A stretch of 64,000 nucleotides of DNA from Arthrobacter sp. S41. GTDB taxonomy: Bacteria; Actinomycetota; Actinomycetes; Actinomycetales; Micrococcaceae. Location: contig NZ_SIHY01000001.1 in NCBI RefSeq assembly GCF_004320535.1, positions 1,426,001-1,490,000 on the forward strand. The letters run 5' to 3'. The position numbers and the translations under genes are program-made. The notes below the pieces were generated by a model, which worked only from the letters and a program-made list of their open reading frames with translations, was not told the DNA's origin and ran no database searches. Below are positions 2,773-13,800 of the stretch, piece by piece. Each line of letters starts with the position of its first letter. The first letter of the stretch is position 1.

Positions 2773-4896
2773 TTAGCTTCCGAAGTTTGCGTAAGTGATA
2801 TTTTCTTTCTCCACCAGAGTCAAAACATCGTAGGTTGCCACGATCTCATCATGCTGATTGTGCAAGATTGCGTCCCACGCGACCTCGCCATATTCATCGG
2901 TGACGCGCGGGGTGATTTTCTTGGCCGTCAGCGTCACGCGAATGGCGTCCCCGGCCGAAACTGGAGTGATGAACCGTAGGTTTTCTAACCCATAATTGGC
3001 CAGTACCGGCCCCGGTGCTGGCTCAACAAAGAGGCCCGCGGCCCATGACACCAGAAGATAGCCGTGGGCAACAATCCCTGGGAAGAATGGGTTAGCTTCC
3101 GCGGCTTTGGCGTCTGTGTGAGCGTAGAAGGTATCGCCGGTTTTTTGCGCGAATTCACTAATTTCTTCTAAGTGCACAACACGCAGATCCGAGGCGAATC
3201 CGTCCCCAACGTGCAGCTCGGCAAGTGCCTTACGGAATGGGTGGACATACTGCGCATCGCCACCAAACTTTTCACTTCCAGCCAATCGTTGGTCGGCTCC
3301 TAAGTGCCATACTCCGCTCAACGCGGTGAGCATATTTGGTGAACCCTGTACGGCGGTGCGCTGCATATGGTGCTTGACCGAACGGATTCCGCCTAGCTCT
3401 TCGCCGCCACCGGCACGGCCTGGTCCGCCGTGGACCAGATGCGGTACCGGTGAGCCGTGGCCAGTTGTTGAACGAGCAGTTTCTCGATTCAGGATGTGAA
3501 CACGTCCGTGATGCGCAGCGATGCCCAAGGTCAGCGCGCGCACCGTCTCAGCGTCGTTACTGCACACGGTTGCTACAAGGGACCCGGCACCCATGACAGC
3601 CAGTTCGATTGCTTCGTCCAGGTTCTCGTAGCCGATGACCGAACTGACTGGTCCAAACGCTTCACGCGAGTGCACCAGTGGATTACGTGCATCATTCCAG
3701 CGAAGAACAATCGGTGACATGAAAGCACCGGCTTGTGCAACAGCGTCCTTTTCGGGCGCTACGCGCACCGCTGGCGCGTCAAGACGTCCATAGGCCAGCT
3801 CGCCGCCGGCAGCCATCATATCTTGCACGGCAGCCCGCACATCGCTCAGCTGCTCCAGTGAAGCCAAAGCTCCCATATTCACGCCCGCTACGCGCGGATC
3901 ACCAATGACCACGCGCTGGTCAATGCGCTCTCCGATAGCTGCAATCACTGGGTCAACCAAGCGCGAGGGAACGATGTTGCGACGGATGGCGGTGCACTTT
4001 TGGCCGGCTTTGCTGGTCATCTCAGTGACGGCTACCTTGACGAAGGCCTCAAATTCGGCGCTTCCCACTTCTGCGTCCGAACCTAGAATGGCCGCGTTCA
4101 GGGAATCGGTTTCAGCCGCGAATCGCACTCCCCCGTCGATAACGTTTGGATGGGATTTAAGTTTGTTTGCGGTGGCAGCTGAGCCGGTGAAGGCAAACAT
4201 GTCACGGTAATCCAGATGATCCATGAGGTCTCGGGCTGAGCCTGAAAGTAGCTGCAAGGATCCTTCTGGCAGGATGCCTGAATCGAGCATCAGTCGTACT
4301 GCGGCCTCTGCCAGGTAGCCCGTTGGTGTTGCTGGCTTAACGATGGTTGGAACACCGGCAATAAAGGCGGGGGCAAATTTTTCCAGCATGCCCCAGACCG
4401 GGAAGTTGAAGGCATTCACCTGCACCACTACTCCGCTCATGGCGGTGTAGATATGTGTGCCGATAAATGAGCCGTCTTTGCTTAGTGGCTCAGTGGGGCC
4501 GTCAAGAATGACATTGTTGTTGGGTAGTTCGCGACGTCCCTTGGAAGAGAACGTAAAGAGCACACCAATGCCGCCATCAATATCCACCATGGAATCTGTT
4601 TTCGTGGCTCCGGTTTTGAACGAGATCTCGTAGAGATCCTTGCGTCGTTCATTCAGATACAGCGCCAGTTCCTTGAGCTTCAACGCCCGCTCGTGCAAGG
4701 TGAGCTTGGCAAGTTCTTGGTGCCCGGTGCTTCGGCCATAGACAACGGCGGCGGCAACATCCAATTTGTCACTAGTTACCGAGGCCAGCAACTCTCCGGT
4801 ATTGGCATCGCGAACCTCAGTTCCTCCCTGATATTCGGGAGTCCACCATTGTCCCGCGATGAAGCTGGGTACTGCGCTGATCTGTTTTGTCGACAT
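2773..4896 (-). CDS. paaZ: PaaZ: oxepin-CoA hydrolase / 3-oxo-5,6-dehydrosuberyl-CoA semialdehyde dehydrogenase
   Basis: Bifunctional ring-cleavage enzyme of aerobic phenylacetyl-CoA degradation. Residues about 1-525 form an aldehyde dehydrogenase domain with catalytic Cys301 (AGQKCTAIRRN) and Glu262 (RFAAETDS). Residues about 560-707 form a MaoC-like hot-dog hydratase domain (FFPGIVAHGYLL, ANYGLENLRFITPV). The 707-residue length is close to the family norm. The ATG at 4896 has AAGGAA 8 nt upstream; the GTG at 4902 is too close to that site. A TetR-type operator candidate lies 15 nt upstream of the start. The ring epoxidase genes paaABCDE and paaK are not in the window, so paaZ is separated from them here. 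A beta-oxidation operon about 2 kb away carries a matching operator. Confidence 0.95.
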   Translation of the reverse strand: MSTKQISAVPSFIAGQWWTPEYQGGTEVRDANTGELLASVTSDKLDVAAAVVYGRSTGHQELAKLTLHERALKLKELALYLNERRKDLYEISFKTGATKTDSMVDIDGGIGVLFTFSSKGRRELPNNNVILDGPTEPLSKDGSFIGTHIYTAMSGVVVQVNAFNFPVWGMLEKFAPAFIAGVPTIVKPATPTGYLAEAAVRLMLDSGILPEGSLQLLSGSARDLMDHLDYRDMFAFTGSAATANKLKSHPNVIDGGVRFAAETDSLNAAILGSDAEVGSAEFEAFVKVAVTEMTSKAGQKCTAIRRNIVPSRLVDPVIAAIGERIDQRVVIGDPRVAGVNMGALASLEQLSDVRAAVQDMMAAGGELAYGRLDAPAVRVAPEKDAVAQAGAFMSPIVLRWNDARNPLVHSREAFGPVSSVIGYENLDEAIELAVMGAGSLVATVCSNDAETVRALTLGIAAHHGRVHILNRETARSTTGHGSPVPHLVHGGPGRAGGGEELGGIRSVKHHMQRTAVQGSPNMLTALSGVWHLGADQRLAGSEKFGGDAQYVHPFRKALAELHVGDGFASDLRVVHLEEISEFAQKTGDTFYAHTDAKAAEANPFFPGIVAHGYLLVSWAAGLFVEPAPGPVLANYGLENLRFITPVSAGDAIRVTLTAKKITPRVTDEYGEVAWDAILHNQHDEIVATYDVLTLVEKENITYANFGS

Positions 4897-4911
4897 TGAC
4901 ACAATTCCTTC

Positions 4912-4927
4912 CTGAACGGTCGGTCAG
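4912..4927. promoter_or_regulatory. TetR-type (PaaR-like) operator candidate before paaZ
   Basis: CTGAACGGTCGGTCAG is an inverted repeat which on the minus strand contains ACCGACCGTTC. The same core with one change recurs at 9832-9845 before the thiolase operon. TetR-type PaaR regulators of Actinobacteria bind ACCGACCG-type palindromes; the assignment to PaaR is inferred. Confidence 0.55.
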
Positions 4928-4980
4928 TATTAACTTAAACCATATCAGGAAGAGCGTGACAGGGGACACCTTAAGCTGCC

Positions 4981-5712
4981 TCAGATCAATGAGTCATCTG
5001 TCGCCAAGATTCGTAAACACTCCAACAATGCCGGGTCCATACCCTGCTGTTCGAGGTAGGACTGCGCTGAACCAATCCAAGTACAGAATTTTTCCAGTGC
5101 TACCGCGCGCTCATTGATGACCTGTCGCAGTTCTTCTTCCTCACGAAAACTCTCGTACGGGTGCTTGCGGGGCGATACCCGGTGCCATTCATTAATGCCT
5201 CGCACCGCAAGTTCATCATGCTTCAGAATCCGGTTTCCCTGACCAGCCAAATCAAGCAAGAGCGTCGCAATAAGTCCTGAACGATCACGTCCTGCCGAGC
5301 AATGAATCACGGTGGCCCCTTGTGAATCCGCCAAATTTTCAAAGACCTCACGTAGCTGGCTGCCAAATTCTTCGCAGACCAACCGATACATACTGGTGTG
5401 ATTCATGTAAGGAACCGCGATGGACTCAAAGCGTTGATTGCCCGGGGTTTCCAGTGGCAGGTTCACTAGTTCAATACGAGCAAGACTGACCTCGGGTACC
5501 GCTGGGTCATGTTCTCGCCGATGAATCTCCGCTGGGTTGCGCAGGTCAATTACCTTGGCCACGCCATCGGCATGCATTTGCTGCCAACCTTCAGCGCTCA
5601 GCCATTCATGGCGACCCATGCGATAGAAAGTTCCGCAGATATGTCGCGCATTCACCGCCCCTGACCACGCCAGGTCCCCGACCTGCTTGTGATAGTTCAC
5701 TTCCTGACTCAT
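4981..5712 (-). CDS. Tyrosine/serine protein phosphatase (Y_phosphatase3 type)
   Basis: The 243-residue cytoplasmic protein carries the phosphatase signature HCSAGRDRSG, with nucleophile Cys138 and phosphate-binding Arg144. The N-terminal part (SGAVNARHICGTFYRMGR, VIDLRNPAEI) matches the lipid/tyrosine phosphatase family related to Mycobacterium PtpB. It could act on phosphotyrosine or on phosphoinositides; the sequence alone does not decide. Shine-Dalgarno support for the ATG at 5712 is weak. It is divergent from the RIO-type kinase gene with about 140 bp between them, so a phosphatase and a kinase share one intergenic region, although no functional link is shown. Confidence 0.85.
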   Translation of the reverse strand: MSQEVNYHKQVGDLAWSGAVNARHICGTFYRMGRHEWLSAEGWQQMHADGVAKVIDLRNPAEIHRREHDPAVPEVSLARIELVNLPLETPGNQRFESIAVPYMNHTSMYRLVCEEFGSQLREVFENLADSQGATVIHCSAGRDRSGLIATLLLDLAGQGNRILKHDELAVRGINEWHRVSPRKHPYESFREEEELRQVINERAVALEKFCTWIGSAQSYLEQQGMDPALLECLRILATDDSLI

Positions 5713-5719
5713 TTACCCA

Positions 5720-5749
5720 TTGCAACATATTGATTCACTGTTGTAGAGT
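5720..5749 (+). promoter_or_regulatory. Candidate promoter of the RIO kinase transcript
   Basis: TTGCAA (5720-5725), 18 nt, then TAGAGT (5744-5749). Transcription would begin just before the palindrome at 5757. Confidence 0.35.
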
Positions 5750-5756
5750 CTTAGTC

Positions 5757-5772
5757 ATTGACAAGTGTCAAT
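5757..5772. promoter_or_regulatory. Perfect inverted repeat between phosphatase and kinase genes
   Basis: ATTGACAAGTGTCAAT has perfect 7-bp arms around a 2-nt centre. It looks like an operator. The binding protein is unknown. Confidence 0.45.
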
Positions 5773-5796
5773 CAGTCTATTGAAGGAGGGGTAACG

Positions 5797-5895
5797 ATGA
5801 TTGTTTACCGCTATTCCCGGTCAGTTACCTCTTTCCTTAAGGACTTCCCCCAATGCATTTCCCTGCTGGAGAACCATCCACCAGCTCACAGCTGA
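5797..5895 (+). CDS. Candidate 32-residue leader peptide ORF overlapping the kinase start
   Basis: The ATG at 5797 follows GAAGGAGGGG by a good spacing, the strongest ribosome binding site in this neighbourhood. The frame encodes 32 residues (MIVYRYSRSVTSFLKDFPQ and on) and ends at TGA 5895, 43 nt inside the kinase gene in a different frame. Ribosomes reading it would pass over the kinase start at 5853, which fits translational coupling or attenuation. I recognise no family. It may be a non-functional product whose translation only tunes the kinase. Confidence 0.45.
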   Translation: MIVYRYSRSVTSFLKDFPQCISLLENHPPAHS

Positions 5896-6755
5896 TCACG
5901 TCAAAATCCGCTGACACTGAGACAGAACTCAAATTCCACAAGCACAAGCCTGTCTGGAATGAATCATTCACCGATGAACCACCAGCCGGCCAACGCTACT
6001 CAACGTGGCCATTTGTTGAGAAGGCTCTGAGAGGTCCTCAGCCCTATCCACTGTGGCTCATTGAAGATGCTGGCGCCCTCGATACCGAGTTAGGCATCCT
6101 CAAGACAGGCAAAGAAGGCGACGTCTTTTTGCTTGAACGTGCTATCGGCGAGCGCAAGAGCCTGCTGGCGGCCAAACGTTACCGCAGTCGCGACCACCTG
6201 CAATTTAGCCGTTCGCAGGCCTATAGTGACGGCCGTTCAGCACGTCGCTCCCGTGATAACCGCGCAATCCGCAATAACTCTGCCTATGGCCGAGACATTG
6301 CAGCTTTGCAGTGGTCCAACGCCGAGTGGACCTATCTCTTGCGTTGTTATGAGGCAGGGATCCCGGTGCCCTACCCAGTACAGATCGACGGCACCGAAAT
6401 CCTGATGGAGTTCATTGCCGACCCAGATGATCCGTTCGCCGCAGCCCCGCGACTTCAACAGCTTGCGCGTTTTGATCCACGGCTACCTGCTTTGTGGGAT
6501 CAACTCACCGATGCGTTGGAGAAGTTCGCGCGGCTGGGAGTGGCTCACGGTGACTTATCGGCGTACAACCTTCTGGTCTCCGGCGAGCGCTTAGTTGTTA
6601 TCGATGTCCCGCAATGTGTGGACCTCGCTGGCAATCCGCACGGTATGGACTTCTTACATCGTGACTGCCTGAACCTCTGCGAGTGGTTTGCTTCCAAGGG
6701 TCATGTGCATGATCCCGATGAGCTGTTCGCTTCATTATTAGGCCACCTGTTCTAG
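5853..6755 (+). CDS. RIO-family serine protein kinase
   Basis: Atypical protein kinase of the RIO1 type, 300 residues. Visible motifs are the nucleotide-binding loop GKEGDV (86-91), Lys108 in AAKRYR, the catalytic loop HGDLSAYN with Asp234, and the metal-binding IDVPQ with Asp251. An Arg-rich stretch near residues 126-147 (SDGRSARRSRDNRAIRNN) may bind nucleic acid. A stop codon lies five codons upstream in frame, and AAGGA is 9 nt before the ATG, so the start is well fixed. A 32-codon ORF overlaps its beginning. Bacterial RIO kinases have no well-defined substrate. The gene ends before a bidirectional terminator. Confidence 0.9.
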   Translation: MHFPAGEPSTSSQLITSKSADTETELKFHKHKPVWNESFTDEPPAGQRYSTWPFVEKALRGPQPYPLWLIEDAGALDTELGILKTGKEGDVFLLERAIGERKSLLAAKRYRSRDHLQFSRSQAYSDGRSARRSRDNRAIRNNSAYGRDIAALQWSNAEWTYLLRCYEAGIPVPYPVQIDGTEILMEFIADPDDPFAAAPRLQQLARFDPRLPALWDQLTDALEKFARLGVAHGDLSAYNLLVSGERLVVIDVPQCVDLAGNPHGMDFLHRDCLNLCEWFASKGHVHDPDELFASLLGHLF

Positions 6756-6770
6756 GCTCCTTAAAACGTT

Positions 6771-6804
6771 CAGTCCCGCCGGTCAGCTACGACCGACGGG
6801 ACTG
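6771..6804. terminator. Bidirectional hairpin between kinase and dehydrogenase genes
   Basis: CAGTCCCGCCGGTC pairs with GACCGACGGGACTG apart from one mismatch, with a 6-nt loop. It separates two convergent genes. Confidence 0.7.
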
Positions 6805-6833
6805 AAAGTGTTGTGACCAATTGCCGATATTTC

Positions 6834-7706
6834 CTACCAGCTATAGAAGCCTTGGCCGCTCTTGCGCCCCAGCTTTCCTTCAGCCACCAAATCCTTGAGG
6901 ATCTGCGGTGGCGCAAACCGCTCCCCCAGAGTTTCATGCAGGTACTCGGCAATTCCTAAACGCACATCCAGTCCGACAATATCGGTGGTCTTCAGTGGAC
7001 CGGTCGGGTGCTTATAGCCAAGCACCATGGCGTTATCGATATCTTCGGCGCTGGCGACACCTTCTTCAACCATGCGCATCGCTTCCAATGCGATAGCTAC
7101 CCCCAGGCGTGAGGAAGCAAAACCCGGAGCATCATTGACCACCACTGCGGTCTTTCCCAAGGCCTGAACCCAACCACGTGAGGCCTCGATCAAGCTGGTA
7201 TCGGTTTGTTCACCGATGACTACTTCGATCAATGTGGACGCGGGAACGGGATTAAAGAAGTGCAGTCCGAGGAACTTTTCCGGACGCTCTAATTCTTTGG
7301 CCAAGCCGCTCACCGATAGGGAGGACGTATTCGAAGCCAAGACCGCATCGGCAGCTAGTACCTGCTCAACTGCTTGCAAGGAAGAAACCTTGAGGTCCCA
7401 GATTTCGGGAACCGCTTCGATCACCAGCTGAGCGTTGGCGAACTGCTGATAGTCAGTGCTGACCGAAAAACGTTGCAGTAGCTCGGTCTTGGATTCGCTG
7501 ACCACACCGCGCTCGATGGACTTTTCCACGGACTGAGCTACTCGCTCAAAAGCAGCCTGCGCCGAGGCATCATCGCGCTCAACTATGACCACGGTACTTC
7601 CGCTAATCAATAGTGCGTGGGCGATACCGGCGCCCATGCGTCCGCCACCGAGCACTCCGCTGCGTTGCGGAAGTTGGCCGGCGGCCAAGGTGTTACTTGC
7701 GCTCAT
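6834..7706 (-). CDS. 3-hydroxyacyl-CoA dehydrogenase (PaaH/FadB2-like)
   Basis: NAD-dependent oxidation of an L-3-hydroxyacyl-CoA to the 3-oxo form. The N-terminal Rossmann fold shows GVLGGGRMGAGIAHAL (about 17-32). The catalytic region contains LGLHFFNPVP, and the C-terminal domain includes GYKHPTGPLKTTDIVGLDVR. The 290-residue length is that of stand-alone dehydrogenases. It starts 2 nt after the stop of the enoyl-CoA hydratase gene, so it is the third gene of a thiolase-hydratase-dehydrogenase operon. The proximity of paaZ and the shared operator core suggest a role in the lower phenylacetate pathway, oxidising 3-hydroxyadipyl-CoA. A general beta-oxidation role is equally possible from sequence. 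Confidence 0.92.
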   Translation of the reverse strand: MSASNTLAAGQLPQRSGVLGGGRMGAGIAHALLISGSTVVIVERDDASAQAAFERVAQSVEKSIERGVVSESKTELLQRFSVSTDYQQFANAQLVIEAVPEIWDLKVSSLQAVEQVLAADAVLASNTSSLSVSGLAKELERPEKFLGLHFFNPVPASTLIEVVIGEQTDTSLIEASRGWVQALGKTAVVVNDAPGFASSRLGVAIALEAMRMVEEGVASAEDIDNAMVLGYKHPTGPLKTTDIVGLDVRLGIAEYLHETLGERFAPPQILKDLVAEGKLGRKSGQGFYSW

Positions 7707-7708
7707 GG

Positions 7709-8503
7709 TTACTTCTTCTTTCGATCAAGGAATTCTTGCATACGATCAAATTTGGCTTGGGATTCAAAAAGCATTCCTTGGGCCAAGGTATCGATGAGCG
7801 GGTGGGCTTCACGTGGGCTATGGAATACCGACTTGGTAATGCGCACCGCCAGCGGGTCTTGGGCGGCAATCCGATCAGCCAAAGCTTCAGCGCCGGTATC
7901 AAGGTCCGCCGCCTCATGCAGTTCGGTGACCAGACCAGCCTGAAGACATTGCTGGCCGGTAAGCACTTTGCCTGCCAAGAGGATCTCTTTGGCCAGCGGT
8001 TCACCCACGAGTTCCTTGAGTCGCCAGGTCGCACCGGCGGCAGCCATGATCCCAAGGTTGGTTTCCGGATTGCCCATTCGAAGTTCGGGGGTGCCGATAC
8101 GGAAGTCTGCGGCATAGGCCAACTCAGCTCCGCCACCTAAAGCAAATCCGTCTAGAGCAGCAATAACTGGCATGGGAAGCTTGGCGATGCGCTCGAAGAT
8201 GCCGGAGTTAATTCCGGCCAGGGCGTCATTGCGGCGACGTTCACGTAACTGGGAGATGTCCGCACCGGAGGCAAAGATCCCCTTGCTCCCCTTGGGATTT
8301 TCCTCGCTGGGCGCTTGGCCCGGTGTACCGGCAAGGATCAAGATCTTCGGGTTTTTTTCCAGGTAGGAACACACTGTGTGTAGCTCATCAACCATTAACT
8401 GATCGATGGCATTGCGCACCTCTGGTCGGTGCAGGCGAACCCAAAGCCGATCTTCACCTTCAGTGACGAGAATCGTGTCAAAGTTCTGCGTCAGGTTGTC
8501 CAT
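7709..8503 (-). CDS. Enoyl-CoA hydratase/isomerase family protein
   Basis: Crotonase-fold enzyme that hydrates a 2,3-enoyl-CoA; 264 residues. Visible are the oxyanion-hole segments FASGADISQL and GFALGGGAELAYAAD, and the conserved ETNLGIMAAAGATWRL. The ATG at 8503 gives the usual N-terminus (MDNLTQNFDTILV). It has AAGGTG upstream and sits 2 nt from the thiolase stop; a longer frame to 8554 runs into thiolase coding sequence. Middle gene of the operon. Its likely substrate is 2,3-dehydroadipyl-CoA if the operon serves phenylacetate (PaaF/G-like); otherwise it takes fatty enoyl-CoAs. Confidence 0.92.
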   Translation of the reverse strand: MDNLTQNFDTILVTEGEDRLWVRLHRPEVRNAIDQLMVDELHTVCSYLEKNPKILILAGTPGQAPSEENPKGSKGIFASGADISQLRERRRNDALAGINSGIFERIAKLPMPVIAALDGFALGGGAELAYAADFRIGTPELRMGNPETNLGIMAAAGATWRLKELVGEPLAKEILLAGKVLTGQQCLQAGLVTELHEAADLDTGAEALADRIAAQDPLAVRITKSVFHSPREAHPLIDTLAQGMLFESQAKFDRMQEFLDRKKK

Positions 8504-8505
8504 GT

Positions 8506-9729
8506 TTAGACACCTTCCAAGAGGATCGCTGAACCTTGCCCCACGCCAACACACATGGTGGCCACACCAAGTTTGCGTTCAGCACCTGCCAGTTCACGTT
8601 CTATTCGGCCCAGCAGGCTAATGACTATGCGCGAACCGCTTGAGCCCAACGGATGGCCCAGAGCAATAGCCCCACCGTCGCGGTTCACGATGTCTGGGTC
8701 TACTGACAGTTCTCGGATACTGGCCAAGGACTGGCTAGCAAACGCTTCGTTGATTTCCATGGCGCCGATCTCATCGATCTTTAGCCCTGCACGATCAAGC
8801 ACCTTGCGGGTAGCCGGCACCGGCCCCATGCCCATGATTTCTGGTTCCAGTCCGACGGCCTGGCCGTCGATAATGCGTGCTCGGGCGTTCAGCCCGTACT
8901 TTTTTAGGGCGCGTTCGGAAACGACCAGAATTGCTGAGGCGCCATCGTTGAGCGAGGAAGCATTGCCGGCGGTGACCACGCTGCCGCCCTTTACTACTGG
9001 CCGTAGCCCGGCGAGCACCTCAAGAGTTGTCCCTTCACGTGGGCCCTCATCGGTATCAACAACCATTTCACCTTTGCGGTGCTTAACAATTACCGGAACA
9101 ATCTCGTCACGGAAGTGCCCCGCCTGGATGGCGGCTATGGCTTTGGCGTGGGACTGTACGGCAAACTCGTCGCAGTCCTCGCGGGAGATGCCGTATACGC
9201 GGGCCACCTCTTCGGCGGTTTCTGGCATGGAGAAAGTTGCTTTGCCCTCGCGGGATAGCTCACCGGAGAGAAATTGAGGATTGGTAAAACGCCAGCCAAT
9301 AGACGTGTCAAAAACGGCTCCGGGCTTGGCAAATGCTTTATCTGGCTTCTCCATTACCCAGGGGGCGCGGGACATGGACTCGACGCCGCCGGCAATCACA
9401 ATGTCGGCAGCTCCGGACTTGATCATATGGCTGGCCATGGTGATGGCACTCATCCCCGAGGCACACAAGCGATTGACCGTAATGCCCGGAATACTCACCG
9501 GCAACCCGGCAAGGAGCGCTGCCATGCGGGCCACGTTGCGATTTTCTTCGCCTGCACCGTTGGCGTTGCCAAGAATCACTTCATCAACCGCTGCTGGGTC
9601 AATGCCTGAGGCTTTGATGAGCTGAGAAATAGTGATGGCTGCCAAGTCATCTGGGCGTACCGGACTCAGCGCGCCACCGTAACGCCCCACAGGAGTACGG
9701 GTTCCGCCCACCAAATATGCCTCAGCCAT
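8506..9729 (-). CDS. Acetyl-CoA acyltransferase (thiolase; 3-oxoadipyl-CoA thiolase-like)
   Basis: Cleaves a 3-oxoacyl-CoA with CoA. The 407-residue protein has the nucleophile Cys89 (NRLCASGMSA), the GGAIALGHPLGSSGSR motif with catalytic His, and the C-terminal CVGVGQG with the second Cys. The ATG at 9729 has AAAGGAG 6 nt upstream; a longer frame to 9762 has no such support. First gene of the operon with the hydratase and dehydrogenase. A PaaR-like operator lies about 100 nt upstream, which supports induction by phenylacetyl-CoA and a role as 3-oxoadipyl-CoA thiolase. That is inference from context, not from an active-site signature. Confidence 0.93.
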   Translation of the reverse strand: MAEAYLVGGTRTPVGRYGGALSPVRPDDLAAITISQLIKASGIDPAAVDEVILGNANGAGEENRNVARMAALLAGLPVSIPGITVNRLCASGMSAITMASHMIKSGAADIVIAGGVESMSRAPWVMEKPDKAFAKPGAVFDTSIGWRFTNPQFLSGELSREGKATFSMPETAEEVARVYGISREDCDEFAVQSHAKAIAAIQAGHFRDEIVPVIVKHRKGEMVVDTDEGPREGTTLEVLAGLRPVVKGGSVVTAGNASSLNDGASAILVVSERALKKYGLNARARIIDGQAVGLEPEIMGMGPVPATRKVLDRAGLKIDEIGAMEINEAFASQSLASIRELSVDPDIVNRDGGAIALGHPLGSSGSRIVISLLGRIERELAGAERKLGVATMCVGVGQGSAILLEGV

Positions 9730-9831
9730 GAATACTCCTTTGTACTCCGGGGCCAACCCCACTTATTGAACCTCAGGGGTCAGGGTCCGGAAAGATGTTT
9801 TTCGCGGTGGCGCAAACCACCGCATAAACTT

Positions 9832-9845
9832 ACCGACCATTCGTT
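9832..9845. promoter_or_regulatory. TetR-type (PaaR-like) operator candidate before thiolase operon
   Basis: ACCGACCATTCGTT shares the ACCGACCRTTC core with the site before paaZ, with half-sites ACCGA and TCGTT around a 4-nt centre. Confidence 0.5.
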
Positions 9846-9864
9846 CACTAATAGAATCACAGAA

Positions 9865-9894
9865 AGGTTCACTCGCCGTCAAGAACGTGAACCT
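9865..9894. repeat. Inverted repeat AGGTTCAC...GTGAACCT
   Basis: Perfect 8-bp arms (9865-9872 and 9887-9894) with a 14-nt spacer, beside the PaaR-like site. A further GTTCAC occurs at 9843-9848. The 12-mer GAACGTGAACCT (9883-9894) recurs on the minus strand upstream of bldC. Confidence 0.5.
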
Positions 9895-9989
9895 ATTTGG
9901 CAAATTTCACAGAGCGTCTAAACAAACAAATCCATGTCAAACATTGAATCTCGAATTCTCCTGACGTAGCCTGTGGAGATTGACCGACT

Positions 9990-10051
9990 CTGGGCACCTG
10001 CCCAGATCGTGGACCGTCACCCAGGGTCAATATAACGAGGTATCCCCTGGG
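9990..10051 (+). promoter_or_regulatory. Two tandem hairpins in the transporter 5' leader
   Basis: Hairpin 1 is CTGGGC-ACCT-GCCCAG (9990-10005). Hairpin 2 pairs CCCAGGG (10020-10026) with CCCTGGG (10045-10051), and GGAC with GTCC lie just outside. The structure ends about 40 nt before the ATG at 10091. I match it to no known riboswitch class. Confidence 0.4.
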
Positions 10052-10090
10052 CGTCCGGTCGACGAAAAGCTGAAGAGCAACGGAGCAGTT

Positions 10091-11506
10091 ATGCCACCGG
10101 ATGACAGCCAACCCAACCACGCAACACCTGCCGATTCTTTTTCTCCCGATTTGTCTCATGACATCGGCCCTGACATCAATACCACCGCCGGACGCCAAGA
10201 AATTCGTAAAGCTACCGCCGCCAGCGCCATGGGTAACATGACCGAGTGGTTCGACTACGGTGTATATGCGGTAGCCGTCACCTATATCACCGCACACTTC
10301 TTCCCTTCCGAGGGCGGCACACTCATGGCTTTGGCCACCTTTGCGCTCTCCTTCCTGGTTCGCCCACTGGGCGGACTGGTTTGGGGTCCACTCGGGGACA
10401 AACTGGGACGCAAAAAGATCCTCGCTTTGACCATCATTATGATGTCTCTTGCGACATTCTTGATTGGTGTACTTCCAACCTTTGAAACCATCGGTGTCTT
10501 TGCACCGATCTTGCTTGTCTTGCTTCGCATGGTCCAAGGCTTCTCAACGGGCGGTGAATACGGTGGCGCAGCAACCTTCATGGCCGAATATGCCCCGGAC
10601 CGCAAACGTGGCTTCTTTGGATCATTCCTTGAGTTCGGCACACTGGGCGGGTTCGCCTTAGGCACTGGAATCATGCTTCTGCTGCAGATCACCCTGGGCG
10701 AAGAATCCATGATGGCTTATGGCTGGCGCATCCCGTTCTTCCTCGCATTACCGATGGGCCTGATCGGTTTGTACTTGCGAAGCAAGTTGGAAGACACCCC
10801 AGTCTTCCAGGAGATGCAAGAAGCCGAAGAAACCCAGCAGAAGAGCACACTCAAAGAATTAGTGATGACCTATTGGAAGCCAATGCTCACCATGAGCGGG
10901 CTGGTCATTGCACTGAACGTCGTGAATTACACCTTGCTCAGCTACATGCCGACCTATCTGGAAACTCAGTTAGGTCTGGATTCCAAGGCTTCATTGGCCA
11001 CTATCTTGATCGGTGAGGTGGCCATGATGGCAGTCATCCCCTTTGCTGGATCACTCTCTGACAGGGTGGGCCGCCGACCCATGTGGTACACGTCGGTCAT
11101 TGGATTATTTGTTCTGGCTGTACCAATGTTCTGGCTCATGGGACAAAGCTTTGGCTGGGCCATCGTTGGCTTTGCGGTACTCGGACTGTTGTACATTCCG
11201 CAGTTGGCAACGATTACTGCCACGTTCCCGGCCATGTTCCCCTCACATGTTCGCTTCGCCGGGTTTGCGGTCACCTACAACATTGCTACCGCACTCTTTG
11301 GCGGAACCGCGGCCATCGTTAATGAGGCTGCCATTGATGCCACAGGCTTCCTACTTTTCCCTGCGGTCTACATGATGATCGCCTGCGTCATTGGCATGAT
11401 CGCCATCAAGTACATGCCGGAAACCGCGGGCGCCTCCCTACGAGGCACCGAGATCCCTGATGCCCACGACACCGGGATTCTAGCGACGGTGAAGAAGGAC
11501 CAGTGA
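10091..11506 (+). CDS. MFS transporter, metabolite:H+ symporter family (ProP-like)
   Basis: Inner-membrane symporter of 471 residues with about 12 membrane segments. It resembles E. coli ProP over TEWFDYGVYA, the loop GDKLGRKKILALT, GGEYGGAATFMAEYAPDRKR and GWRIPFFLALPMGLIGLYLR, but lacks ProP's C-terminal coiled coil. The ATG at 10091 has CGGAG upstream. An in-frame TTG at 9980 would add 37 untypical residues and consume the hairpin leader. The substrate could be proline/betaine or an organic acid. It diverges from the thiolase operon and shares a region with a PaaR-like site, so uptake of an aromatic acid is a possible alternative. Confidence 0.88.
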   Translation: MPPDDSQPNHATPADSFSPDLSHDIGPDINTTAGRQEIRKATAASAMGNMTEWFDYGVYAVAVTYITAHFFPSEGGTLMALATFALSFLVRPLGGLVWGPLGDKLGRKKILALTIIMMSLATFLIGVLPTFETIGVFAPILLVLLRMVQGFSTGGEYGGAATFMAEYAPDRKRGFFGSFLEFGTLGGFALGTGIMLLLQITLGEESMMAYGWRIPFFLALPMGLIGLYLRSKLEDTPVFQEMQEAEETQQKSTLKELVMTYWKPMLTMSGLVIALNVVNYTLLSYMPTYLETQLGLDSKASLATILIGEVAMMAVIPFAGSLSDRVGRRPMWYTSVIGLFVLAVPMFWLMGQSFGWAIVGFAVLGLLYIPQLATITATFPAMFPSHVRFAGFAVTYNIATALFGGTAAIVNEAAIDATGFLLFPAVYMMIACVIGMIAIKYMPETAGASLRGTEIPDAHDTGILATVKKDQ

Positions 11507-11547
11507 AGAAGAACTAACGCTAGACGCCTAACGTCAACCAACCGTGC

Positions 11548-11590
11548 GGGGCTTGGGTTTCAGTCAATTTTTGGCTAATTCCCAAGCCCC
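11548..11590 (+). terminator. Hairpin after transporter gene
   Basis: GGGGCTTGGG pairs with CCCAAGCCCC across a 23-nt loop. The T-tract is poor, so termination strength is uncertain. Confidence 0.5.
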
Positions 11591-11669
11591 TTCGCTGTGG
11601 CACCGAGATTCACTGCGTTCAAAACCATCGGTTTGTGCGCCACAGTCCGCGCAAACAGGTTCAAGGTAC

Positions 11670-11675
11670 TAGCAT
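11670..11675 (+). promoter_or_regulatory. Leaderless -10 box of menB
   Basis: TAGCAT ends 7 nt before the GTG at 11683, so the transcript should begin at or next to the start codon. Confidence 0.6.
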
Positions 11676-11682
11676 TTAGAGG

Positions 11683-12645
11683 GTGAATAGCCAGAACAGC
11701 TCAGCCCTGCCCGAAAAGGTTTCCGACGTCTTTGATCCAATGCGCTGGCGCGTGGTTGAAGGATTCGACTTCACCGACGTCACCTACCACCGTCAGGTAG
11801 AGCGCAATACCTACGGCGAAATCACTCGCGACCTACCAACGGTCCGTATCGCCTTTGACCGTCCCGAGGTGCGCAATGCTTTCCGCCCGCACACCGTTGA
11901 TGAGCTTTACCGCGCTATGGATCACGCCCGTATGACCAGTGATGTGGCCACCGTCATCCTCACCGGCAACGGACCATCAGCCAAAGATGGCGGGCACGCC
12001 TTCTGCTCCGGTGGCGACCAGCGCATCCGTGGCCGTGATGGCTACCGCTACGCCGAGGGTGAGACCCGCGAGTCAATCGACCCTGCCCGCGCCGGACGCC
12101 TGCACATTCTTGAAGTACAGCGCCTGATGCGCACCATGCCCAAGGTTGTCCTGTGCGTGGTCAACGGTTGGGCCGCGGGTGGCGGACACTCACTGCACGT
12201 AGTTTCTGACTTGACCATCGCCTCCAAAGAAAACGGCAAGTTTAAGCAGACCGACGCCACCGTCGGTTCCTTTGATGCTGGCTATGGCTCGGCGCTGCTG
12301 GCCCGCCAGGTAGGTCAGAAGACTGCCCGCGAGATTTTCTTCCTTGCCCGCGAATACTCCGCAGATGACATGGTACGCATGGGCGCGGTTAATGAATCAG
12401 TTGATCATGAGCGTCTGGAAGAAGTTGCATTGGAATACGCAGCGGACATCGCCAAGCAATCCCCGCAAGCCATCCGCATGCTCAAGTTTGCGTTCAACTT
12501 GGCTGATGACGGACTGGCCGGTCAGCAGGTCTTTGCCGGCGAAGCTACCCGCATGGCCTACATGACCGACGAAGCCGTAGAGGGACGCGACGCGTTCTTG
12601 GGCAAGCGGGACCCTGACTGGTCCAACTACCCGTACTACTTCTAA
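11683..12645 (+). CDS. menB: 1,4-dihydroxy-2-naphthoyl-CoA synthase (MenB)
   Basis: Crotonase-fold enzyme that closes the ring of o-succinylbenzoyl-CoA in menaquinone synthesis. The 320-residue sequence has typical MenB segments: RPEVRNAFRPHTVDEL, HAFCSGGDQRIRGRDGY, NGWAAGGGHSLHVVSDLTIA and DATVGSFDAGYGSALLARQVG. It ends in the usual DPDWSNYPYYF. The GTG start has no separate ribosome binding site but lies 7 nt after a TAGCAT box, consistent with a leaderless mRNA. It is followed 27 nt later by menE and then menA. MenA-type quinone synthesis fits the cytochrome c genes nearby. Confidence 0.97.
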   Translation: MNSQNSSALPEKVSDVFDPMRWRVVEGFDFTDVTYHRQVERNTYGEITRDLPTVRIAFDRPEVRNAFRPHTVDELYRAMDHARMTSDVATVILTGNGPSAKDGGHAFCSGGDQRIRGRDGYRYAEGETRESIDPARAGRLHILEVQRLMRTMPKVVLCVVNGWAAGGGHSLHVVSDLTIASKENGKFKQTDATVGSFDAGYGSALLARQVGQKTAREIFFLAREYSADDMVRMGAVNESVDHERLEEVALEYAADIAKQSPQAIRMLKFAFNLADDGLAGQQVFAGEATRMAYMTDEAVEGRDAFLGKRDPDWSNYPYYF

Positions 12646-12672
12646 TCACTGGCACCGGCACAAGGAACCACT

Positions 12673-13800
12673 ATGGACGCACAGCTTCAGGAACTGCTCT
12701 CGGCACTGGCCAACGCCGCTAACGACGATGGCCCGGCTGTTGAAGTCATCATCGACGAAAGCAGCGACTCAGGCTGGCGCATCGAATACCTCACCGAGCA
12801 GGATCTGCCCGGCTTTGAACAACCCATGGCGGTGGTGCGCACCTCCGGTTCTACTGGTCGGGCCAAGCGCACGGTGCTCAGTGTTGAGGCGCTGGCATCA
12901 AGTGCGCAGGCCACTGCTGAGTACCTAGGATTTGAGGGCCAGTGGTTGTTGGCTTTGCCGGTGCATTATGTGGCCGGGCTCAGCGTGCTGACTCGCTCCT
13001 TGTTCGCCGGAACCAAACCTGTGGTCATGGATTTGTCGGGTAGTTTTTCAGCTTCCTCGTTCACTCAGGCTGCACAGCAGATGGTTGAAAAGCGACGCCT
13101 CACCTCGCTGGTACCAACCCAGCTAGCTCGCCTGCTTGATGACGCTGATCCGGCTACCTTGACCGCGCTCAAACGCTTTGACGCCATCTTGCTCGGCGGA
13201 GCCCGCGCCAGCAAGGACTTGCTCGTCAACGCTCGACACCACGGACTGAAGATCTTCCAAACCTATGGGTCTTCAGAGACCTCGGGTGGATTGGTGTACA
13301 ACGGCAGCGCACTGCCCGGCGTGCAGCTGGCCGAACACGATTCTCGCATCTGGGTTTCTGGCCCCATGCTGGCCGATGGCTACGTGGATTCCCCAGAGGC
13401 CACCGCAGAGCACTTTGTAGAACACGATGGACACCGCTGGTACGTTACCGATGATTTGGGCTCTGTTCAGGGCCAGCGACTAAGCATCGTTGGGCGCGTG
13501 GATGACGTGATCAACTCTGGTGGCATCAAGCTCTCAGCTTCCAAGATCGAGGGCATCCTGGAAGAATTCTTCACCCAAACCTTGGTCGTTTCAGTGCCTG
13601 ATCCGCAGTGGGGTCAAAGCGTTGGCTTAGCTTTCAGCGGACCCACCAAAACCGAGGCAGCCTTCGACGCGGTGCGCCGAACCTTGGGCAAAGAAGCCGT
13701 GCCAAAGTATGTTCGGCACTACCCTAACGGGTTGCCACAACTGCCCAACGGCAAGTTCGACCGCAAGCTGATCATTGATGAACTCGGTGCGCGCAACTAA
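12673..13800 (+). CDS. menE: o-succinylbenzoate-CoA ligase (MenE)
   Basis: Adenylate-forming enzyme that activates o-succinylbenzoate with ATP and CoA, supplying the MenB substrate. At 375 residues it is short, as in other actinobacterial MenE proteins. The P-loop-like VVRTSGSTGRAKRTVLS lies near 55-71, the mid-domain QTYGSSETSGGLVY follows, then the hinge VGRVDDVINSGGIKLS. The C-terminal Lys in LPNGKFDRK is the usual adenylation lysine. AAGGAA lies upstream of the ATG. Middle gene of menBEA. Confidence 0.95.
   Translation: MDAQLQELLSALANAANDDGPAVEVIIDESSDSGWRIEYLTEQDLPGFEQPMAVVRTSGSTGRAKRTVLSVEALASSAQATAEYLGFEGQWLLALPVHYVAGLSVLTRSLFAGTKPVVMDLSGSFSASSFTQAAQQMVEKRRLTSLVPTQLARLLDDADPATLTALKRFDAILLGGARASKDLLVNARHHGLKIFQTYGSSETSGGLVYNGSALPGVQLAEHDSRIWVSGPMLADGYVDSPEATAEHFVEHDGHRWYVTDDLGSVQGQRLSIVGRVDDVINSGGIKLSASKIEGILEEFFTQTLVVSVPDPQWGQSVGLAFSGPTKTEAAFDAVRRTLGKEAVPKYVRHYPNGLPQLPNGKFDRKLIIDELGARN

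Follow-up and report, generated by a model that had tools for sequence, protein, structure and literature searches.

The 5' end of the RIO1-like kinase mRNA in Arthrobacter sp. S41 is probably a cis-acting leader in which translation of a small ORF unfolds a hairpin that would otherwise hide the start of the kinase gene. Sequence comparison established the anatomy of this leader, its conservation, the lack of amino acid selection on the encoded peptide, and a co-varying pairing between clades. To our knowledge, little has been described about what RIO kinases do in bacteria or how they are regulated, and a leader that is spread over the actinobacterial class would offer a handle on when such a kinase is made.

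RESULTS

A small ORF overlaps the start of the RIO kinase gene

The window is a 64,000-nt stretch of Arthrobacter sp. S41 DNA (assembly GCF_004320535.1, contig NZ_SIHY01000001.1, forward strand, positions 1,426,001 to 1,490,000), and all coordinates given here are window positions. Its genus is the one that contains Glutamicibacter nicotianae. We refer to the small leader ORF before the RIO kinase gene as the uORF. The features of the leader and the kinase gene were as follows.

5720..5749, + strand: candidate promoter, TTGCAA - 18 nt - TAGAGT, picked by eye
5757..5772, no strand assigned: palindrome ATTGACAAGTGTCAAT, a possible DNA operator or 5'-end mRNA hairpin
5783-5789, + strand: Shine-Dalgarno (SD) sequence of the uORF, AAGGAGG, read from the sequence; also the predicted 5' arm of inner helix P2
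5797..5895, + strand: uORF, 32 codons plus stop, with a 43-nt overlap with the kinase gene, from the sequence and the ORF lists
5839-5843, + strand: SD sequence of the kinase gene, AAGGA, inside the uORF, with GGA predicted to be paired in outer helix P1
5853..6755, + strand: RIO1-domain protein kinase, 300 aa (Pfam RIO1, PF01163)

The original prediction described a 32-codon ORF that has a strong SD, overlaps the kinase gene out of frame by 43 nt, and contains the kinase AAGGA, and the sequence and ORF lists bore this out to the base. Specifically, GAAGGAGG was located at 5782-5789 upstream of the uORF ATG at 5797, and the in-frame TGA at 5893-5895 was located 43 nt within the kinase gene, which is read in a different frame. 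The distance from the kinase AAGGA to the kinase ATG at 5853 was 9 nt. An in-frame TTG at 5758 was present upstream of the uORF ATG, and the ORF list started the uORF at this codon.

The kinase matched Pfam RIO1 (PF01163) with 100.9 bits (cut-off, 22), and its best solved relatives were RIO1 proteins (4otp_A, E 1.1e-15; 1zp9_A, E 7.8e-15). It scored below the cut-offs of the NCBIfam RIO equivalogs PA4780 (136.5 of 350 bits) and haloarchaeal Rio1 (87 of 480 bits). The kinases of four same-genus loci were identical to those of named records, namely, Arthrobacter sp. NIO-1057, G. nicotianae NBRC 14234, Arthrobacter sp. MYb214, and Glutamicibacter sp. JC586.

Promoter-like hexamers recurred before same-genus loci (TTGCAT in L014 to L016 and TTGCAC in L017 and L018), and the second hexamer was variable in L011, L013, and L018. 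Because a stricter scan of the window leader yielded no promoter-like site, we graded the candidate promoter at 5720..5749 as weak. The sole exact match to ATTGRCNNNNGYCAAT in the Arthrobacter sp. S41 genome was the palindrome at 5757-5772, which may be the operator of some regulator. As judged by eye, similar palindromes were present in most same-genus leaders, and those in several other genera overlapped the presumed -35 element.

The overlapping uORF is kept in the genus and far outside it

The kinase gene was present in all 18 same-genus genomes searched, and in every one of them an SD-led ATG uORF of 27 to 37 codons overlapped the kinase start by 31 to 59 nt. Frame and stop had been expected to persist in close relatives, and they did: the frame was open across the kinase start in 18 of 18 loci, and the stop was equally distant in 14, which had an overlap of exactly 43 nt. 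The uORF SD contained AGGAGG and was spaced 7 nt from the ATG in all 18 loci. The kinase SD contained AAGGA in all 18 as well, and the kinase start was ATG in 11 loci and GTG in 7. In alignment A2 (17 rows, without L005, which is near-identical to L003 and L006), 14 of the 24 invariant columns belonged to the uORF start codon or to one of the two SDs.

Kinase matches were found in 60 of 395 genomes (8 of 32 genera) of the family, 94 of 396 genomes (32 of 109 genera) of the order, and 65 of 394 genomes (24 of 138 genera) of the class; these searches had genomes in common, and by our count 194 distinct genomes had a match. We classified 130 distinct loci. Two were named records (L142, a Nocardioides MAG, and L143, Microlunatus endophyticus), and 128 came from the searches: 59 from the family (all except a broken copy), 43 further ones from the order, and 26 further ones from the class, with loci outside the family taken mostly best scores first. 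The broken copy (L060), in which the kinase consisted of two short adjacent matches only and the gene was apparently broken, and L061, L062, L063, and L065 (duplicates of L038, L050, L052, and L057) were left out before the counts were made.

An SD-led uORF overlapped the kinase start in 95 of the 130 loci and stopped 31 to 76 nt before the kinase gene in 29, and 6 loci (L027, L050, L051, L052, L053, and L099) had no uORF. A fixed-rule script assigned 111 of the 124 uORF loci (86 overlapping and 25 non-overlapping), and the other 13 were placed manually with less strict criteria, either because the kinase start lacked a passing SD (L021, L032, L035, and L160) or because the uORF had a weak SD, began with GTG, or had been picked wrongly by the automatic procedure (L069, L076, L077, L081, L084, L116, L117, L163, and L168). 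L163 was left out of the by-clade mate-swap, the opening-energy calculation, the 86-locus fold counts, and the f45 pN/pS set described below. Four script-assigned uORFs also had a GTG start (L143, L155, L156, and L158). In the 86 script-assigned overlapping loci, the uORF was 24 to 44 codons long, the overlap was 17 to 71 nt, and the distance from the uORF start to the kinase start was 53, 55, 56, 58, 59, 61, 64, 65, 67, 70, 71, or 73 nt. In f45 and its neighbors, the distances were 58, 61, 64, 67, and 70 nt, that is, steps of 3.

In three g21 genomes without a uORF, the presumed promoter abutted the kinase ATG in our reading of the sequence, and the uORF and the hairpin seem to have been lost together as one unit. 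In L050, L051, L052, and L053, the kinase start follows the presumed promoter immediately in our reading, without a leader between them, and the kinase mRNAs of these loci may be leaderless. A loose search of L050 and L052 gave frames that started upstream of the presumed promoter, and these frames were left uncounted.

A predicted hairpin pairs both ribosome sites

Two helices were predicted in the leader, with the following arms in addition to the uORF SD.

5774..5778, + strand: 5' arm of outer helix P1, AGUCU, predicted to pair with 5841-5845 in the MFE fold and in the consensus of 17 same-genus leaders
5824..5838, + strand: 3' arms of inner helix P2 (5824-5831 and UCCUU at 5834-5838), predicted in the MFE fold and in the consensus folds of three genera
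5841..5845, + strand: 3' arm of P1, GGACU, predicted in the MFE and consensus folds

In the MFE fold of the window leader, P2 paired 5783-5787 with 5834-5838 and 5788-5795 with 5824-5831. In the MFE folds of overlapping loci, P1 joined the kinase SD or its neighbors to the segment before the uORF SD, and P2 joined the uORF SD to a pyrimidine tract immediately upstream of that of the kinase. As raw counts without a shuffled control, at least 4 P1 pairs were found in 79 of the 86 overlapping loci, at least 4 P2 pairs in 79, and both in 74; the kinase SD was at least half paired in 83, and P1 was absent from the fold in 7.

The letters of P1 varied by clade. They were AGUCU/GGACU in the window, AGUAACU/AGUUACU in L022 (g23), GAAUCGACUCC/GGAGUCGAUUC in L042 (g24), and CCUGAGAGG/CCUCUCAGG in L143 (Microlunatus), and within the window's genus they were AAUGAGUCU/GGACUCAUU in L013 and CAAUCGGU/ACCGAUUG in L018. 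RNAalifold consensus folds contained P1 and P2, independently and unprompted, in the window's genus, g24, and g23. For f45, RNAalifold on a sequence-made alignment gave neither P1 nor P2 and predicted another pairing of the kinase SD instead.

We compared the pairing with slid and shuffled controls. The g23 leaders were 90.4% paired versus at most 61.5% when slid, and none of 500 shuffles matched the observed covariation score or percentage paired. The g24 leaders, for which the outer helix was extended by hand, were 86.7% paired versus at most 61.7% when slid; 14 of 500 shuffles matched the changes on both sides of a pair, and 22 of 500 matched the covariation score. In the window's genus, the leaders were 93.8% paired versus at most 75.6% when slid, and covariation was not above that of shuffles (403 of 500).

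In a mate-swap test, the 5' and 3' halves were exchanged between loci. With 39 chosen representatives, which mixed clades of different GC, the native mean energy was reached in 0 of 20000 permutations for P1, 159 for P2, and 0 for both, with own halves pairing better than exchanged ones. The test was also run by clade on chosen representatives from the window's genus (10 loci), the rest of the family (20 loci), f45 and neighbors (21 loci), and f17/f13/f8/f15 (14 loci). In that order, the native mean energy of both arms was reached in 63, 0, 0, and 0 of 20000 permutations, that of P1 alone in 533, 0, 1110, and 37, and that of P2 alone in 1362, 8038, 724, and 2313. Thus, P2 alone was nowhere strong, and P1 alone was not clear-cut in f45 and neighbors. 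With shuffled partners as the control in 63 script-assigned overlapping loci, P1 ranked among the top 5% at 28 loci and P2 at 10.

In the window alone, P1 had 5 pairs and an energy of -5.5 kcal/mol (p 0.30 versus shuffles), P2 had a p value of 0.04, and the fold of 5750-5900 had a z-score of -1.6, with 12 of 200 shuffles folding equally well. Given the cross-clade pairing and these weak window statistics, the predicted hairpin is supported by the comparison between loci and weakly in the window alone. We infer that the hairpin forms in the cell.

A known riboswitch or RNA family was rejected as a candidate: Rfam 15 matched none in the leaders of 23 loci. Four matches at E values up to 1 were obtained in these loci, all of them outside the leader. 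Two were above gathering, SAM-IV at 1307-1420 in L100 and guanidine-III at 708-774 in L161, and two, c4-a1b1 (L106) and mir-1949 (L146), were far below gathering and were probably chance.

Translation of the uORF probably opens the kinase start

In the mechanism that we propose, P1 would mask the kinase ribosome site, and P2 would pair the uORF site with the adjoining pyrimidine tract. Ribosomes would load on the strong uORF site, probably during transcription of the 3' arms. Because a uORF ribosome in the overlapping class would cross both 3' arms and stop 17 to 71 nt past the kinase start (43 nt here), it would open the hairpin fully, and the unmasked kinase start would be used by a new ribosome. 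As an alternative second route, the terminating uORF ribosome might move back to the kinase start. Kinase synthesis would be tied to uORF translation, mainly by RNA unfolding, and the peptide itself would be irrelevant.

The arrangement and the predicted masking hairpin are kept in relatives, so uORF translation probably switches the kinase on. We infer both the coupling of kinase synthesis to uORF translation and its positive sign, in which more uORF translation would raise kinase synthesis. The original prediction that uORF translation governs whether the kinase start is accessible gained partial support from the conservation far outside the genus and from a co-varying hairpin that includes both ribosome sites. 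The support is partial because the sign of the effect is presumed, the hairpin is weak in the window alone, and own-genus covariation did not exceed that of shuffles. A single mechanism may not fit all loci because the uORF stops before the kinase in 29 of 130. We also calculated opening energies in the 86 script-assigned overlapping loci (group f1g1, n = 23, includes the f1g18 and f1g16 loci). A mask over the uORF start and an equal mask placed in the loop reduced the energy needed to open the kinase site to the same extent, and this footprint calculation therefore does not discriminate.

The main rival to this mechanism is occlusion, by which uORF ribosomes would run over the kinase start, lower kinase synthesis, and keep the kinase scarce, with relief when initiation on the better-sited uORF drops. 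In line with such an effect, the SD match was longer for the uORF than for the kinase in 84 of the 86 script-assigned overlapping loci, and 95 of the 130 loci had a uORF that runs out of frame over the kinase start. However, occlusion leaves unexplained the co-varying pairing that would hide the kinase site, and also the 29 loci in which the uORF ends before the kinase start, and we consider it rather unlikely.

We give a still smaller chance to an attenuator-type leader peptide, in which stalling caused by amino acid shortage or a ribosome-targeting drug would switch alternative hairpins. In favor of this design, ten f19 loci with a non-overlapping uORF (L064, L066, L078, L080, L083, L085, L086, L098, L102, and L104) have three segments that, as judged by eye, could form mutually exclusive hairpins resembling a translational attenuator: GRGGCC.. 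at the uORF end, GGCCUCC in the middle, and GGAG.. at the kinase SD. Ribosome-mediated attenuator leaders of the trp and erm type likewise have a short ORF and hairpins upstream of the gene. In contrast to those leaders, no regulatory codons were seen here; no shared codon run was apparent by eye, and the peptides differed between genera and lacked amino acid selection and conservation. A scan of 5601-6000 found no terminator-like site in the window leader, which speaks against a transcriptional attenuator.

The initiation site and open frame are conserved rather than the peptide

The pN/pS ratio in the uORF frame was 1.22 (distance 56 set) and 0.83 (distance 53 set) in the window's genus, 0.83 in g24, 0.94 in g23, 1.21 in f45, and 1.02 in f19, and in each of these six sets another frame had a lower value. 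No set had a stop in the uORF frame, which results partly from how the ORFs were picked; stops occurred in the second frame in five sets and in the third frame in two. Among the 11 same-genus loci with a distance of 56, the uORF frame had no stop before the overlap, and a stop was present in the second frame in 5 and in the third frame in 8.

A functional micropeptide made from the uORF is highly improbable. MSTTVxG-like N termini recur in families f17 and f45, but pN/pS was between 0.94 and 1.22 in four of the six sets, peptides of different genera were unlike one another, and the window peptide had no match in Pfam. The lack of amino acid selection and of a family match ruled out a small protein. 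As for the conservation of peptide and overlap in relatives, originally suggested as a check, the overlap was kept and the peptide was not. Judging from the alignments, the peptide is free of amino acid selection, and what is conserved is the initiation site and the open frame; translation itself therefore seems to matter. A 32-codon ORF can thus be conserved for its translation and not its product, and annotation based on peptide conservation will miss such ORFs.

Fusion of the uORF to the kinase by frameshifting was ruled out because the frame relation differs between clades. In the 86 overlapping loci, the start-to-start distance modulo 3 was 2 in 24 and 1 in 62, and in the window's genus it was 2 in 17 of 18 loci and 1 in L017.

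For the chance background, which refers to the Arthrobacter sp. S41 genome only (other families are more GC-rich), we searched 464 kb made up of the window and 20 pieces of contig C1, each 20 kb long, with genes taken as ORFs of at least 150 aa. The strict search accepted an out-of-frame ATG ORF of 10 to 60 aa with an SD of at least 6 nt before an SD-led gene start, provided that the ORF overlapped the gene start or stopped no more than 40 nt before it. Among the 365 called genes, it returned one case, the RIO kinase. Short frames are often open in high-GC DNA, but with a uORF in 18 of 18 loci of the genus, kept across families, and a single case among 365 genes, a functionless chance frame has next to no probability; the overlapping uORF is not chance.

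DISCUSSION

Coupling of this depth has precedents in RNA phages. As reviewed in PMC12548453, the coat and lysis genes form coupled pairs with a spacing of -50 nt in MS2 and -38 nt in fr, and RNA structure encloses the start site of the MS2 lysis gene. As in these pairs, the downstream gene here starts inside the upstream ORF, and the 43-nt overlap lies between the two phage values and thus within the range of known coupled pairs. Unlike the coat gene, the upstream ORF is a leader of 24 to 44 codons without a selected product, and the element is chromosomal and spread over an actinobacterial class. If the coupling holds, the deep out-of-frame type seen in RNA phages would have a cellular counterpart.

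The rpmI and rplT genes of E. coli are both protein genes. According to the same review (PMC12548453), translation of rpmI, the first gene, prevents an inhibitory structure at the second ribosome site. The leader described here would be similar in that a structure at the downstream ribosome site, in our case a predicted one, is undone by upstream translation, and it differs in its 43-nt overlap versus a spacing of +52 nt without overlap. Korolev et al. 2016 (PMC4833913) proposed that actinobacterial leader genes raise translation by reinitiation; these too are short cis-acting leader ORFs before actinobacterial structural genes. Unlike our analysis, that survey considered only leader ORFs lying clear of the structural genes, and the words "RIO" and "kinase" are absent from its main text.

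Literature searches that covered few subscription papers returned no such leader, in agreement with the earlier remark that no described one was known for bacterial RIO kinases. The coupling principle is known, and the element, its conservation, and its link to a RIO kinase appear to be new.

A speculative extension, to which we assign a low probability, is that the leader is an old actinobacterial RNA element that reads translation-initiation capacity, with the kinase made only while ribosomes load on the mini-ORF. If true, the ribosome sites of the mini-ORF and the RIO1-like kinase would lie on opposite strands of one hairpin. RIO kinases of archaea and eukaryotes have a role in small-subunit maturation, and under this reading the bacterial kinase may therefore join a feedback loop on ribosome supply.

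A divergent gene of the tyrosine phosphatase family (Y_phosphatase3, PF13350) was located at 4981-5712 and had a short intergenic region in common with the kinase gene, and the two genes possibly form a kinase-phosphatase pair. The region around the pair (2773-13800) encoded aldehyde dehydrogenase-MaoC, 3-hydroxyacyl-CoA dehydrogenase, enoyl-CoA hydratase, sugar-transporter, and AMP-binding domains, surroundings that we take to resemble a phenylacetate-type catabolic cluster.
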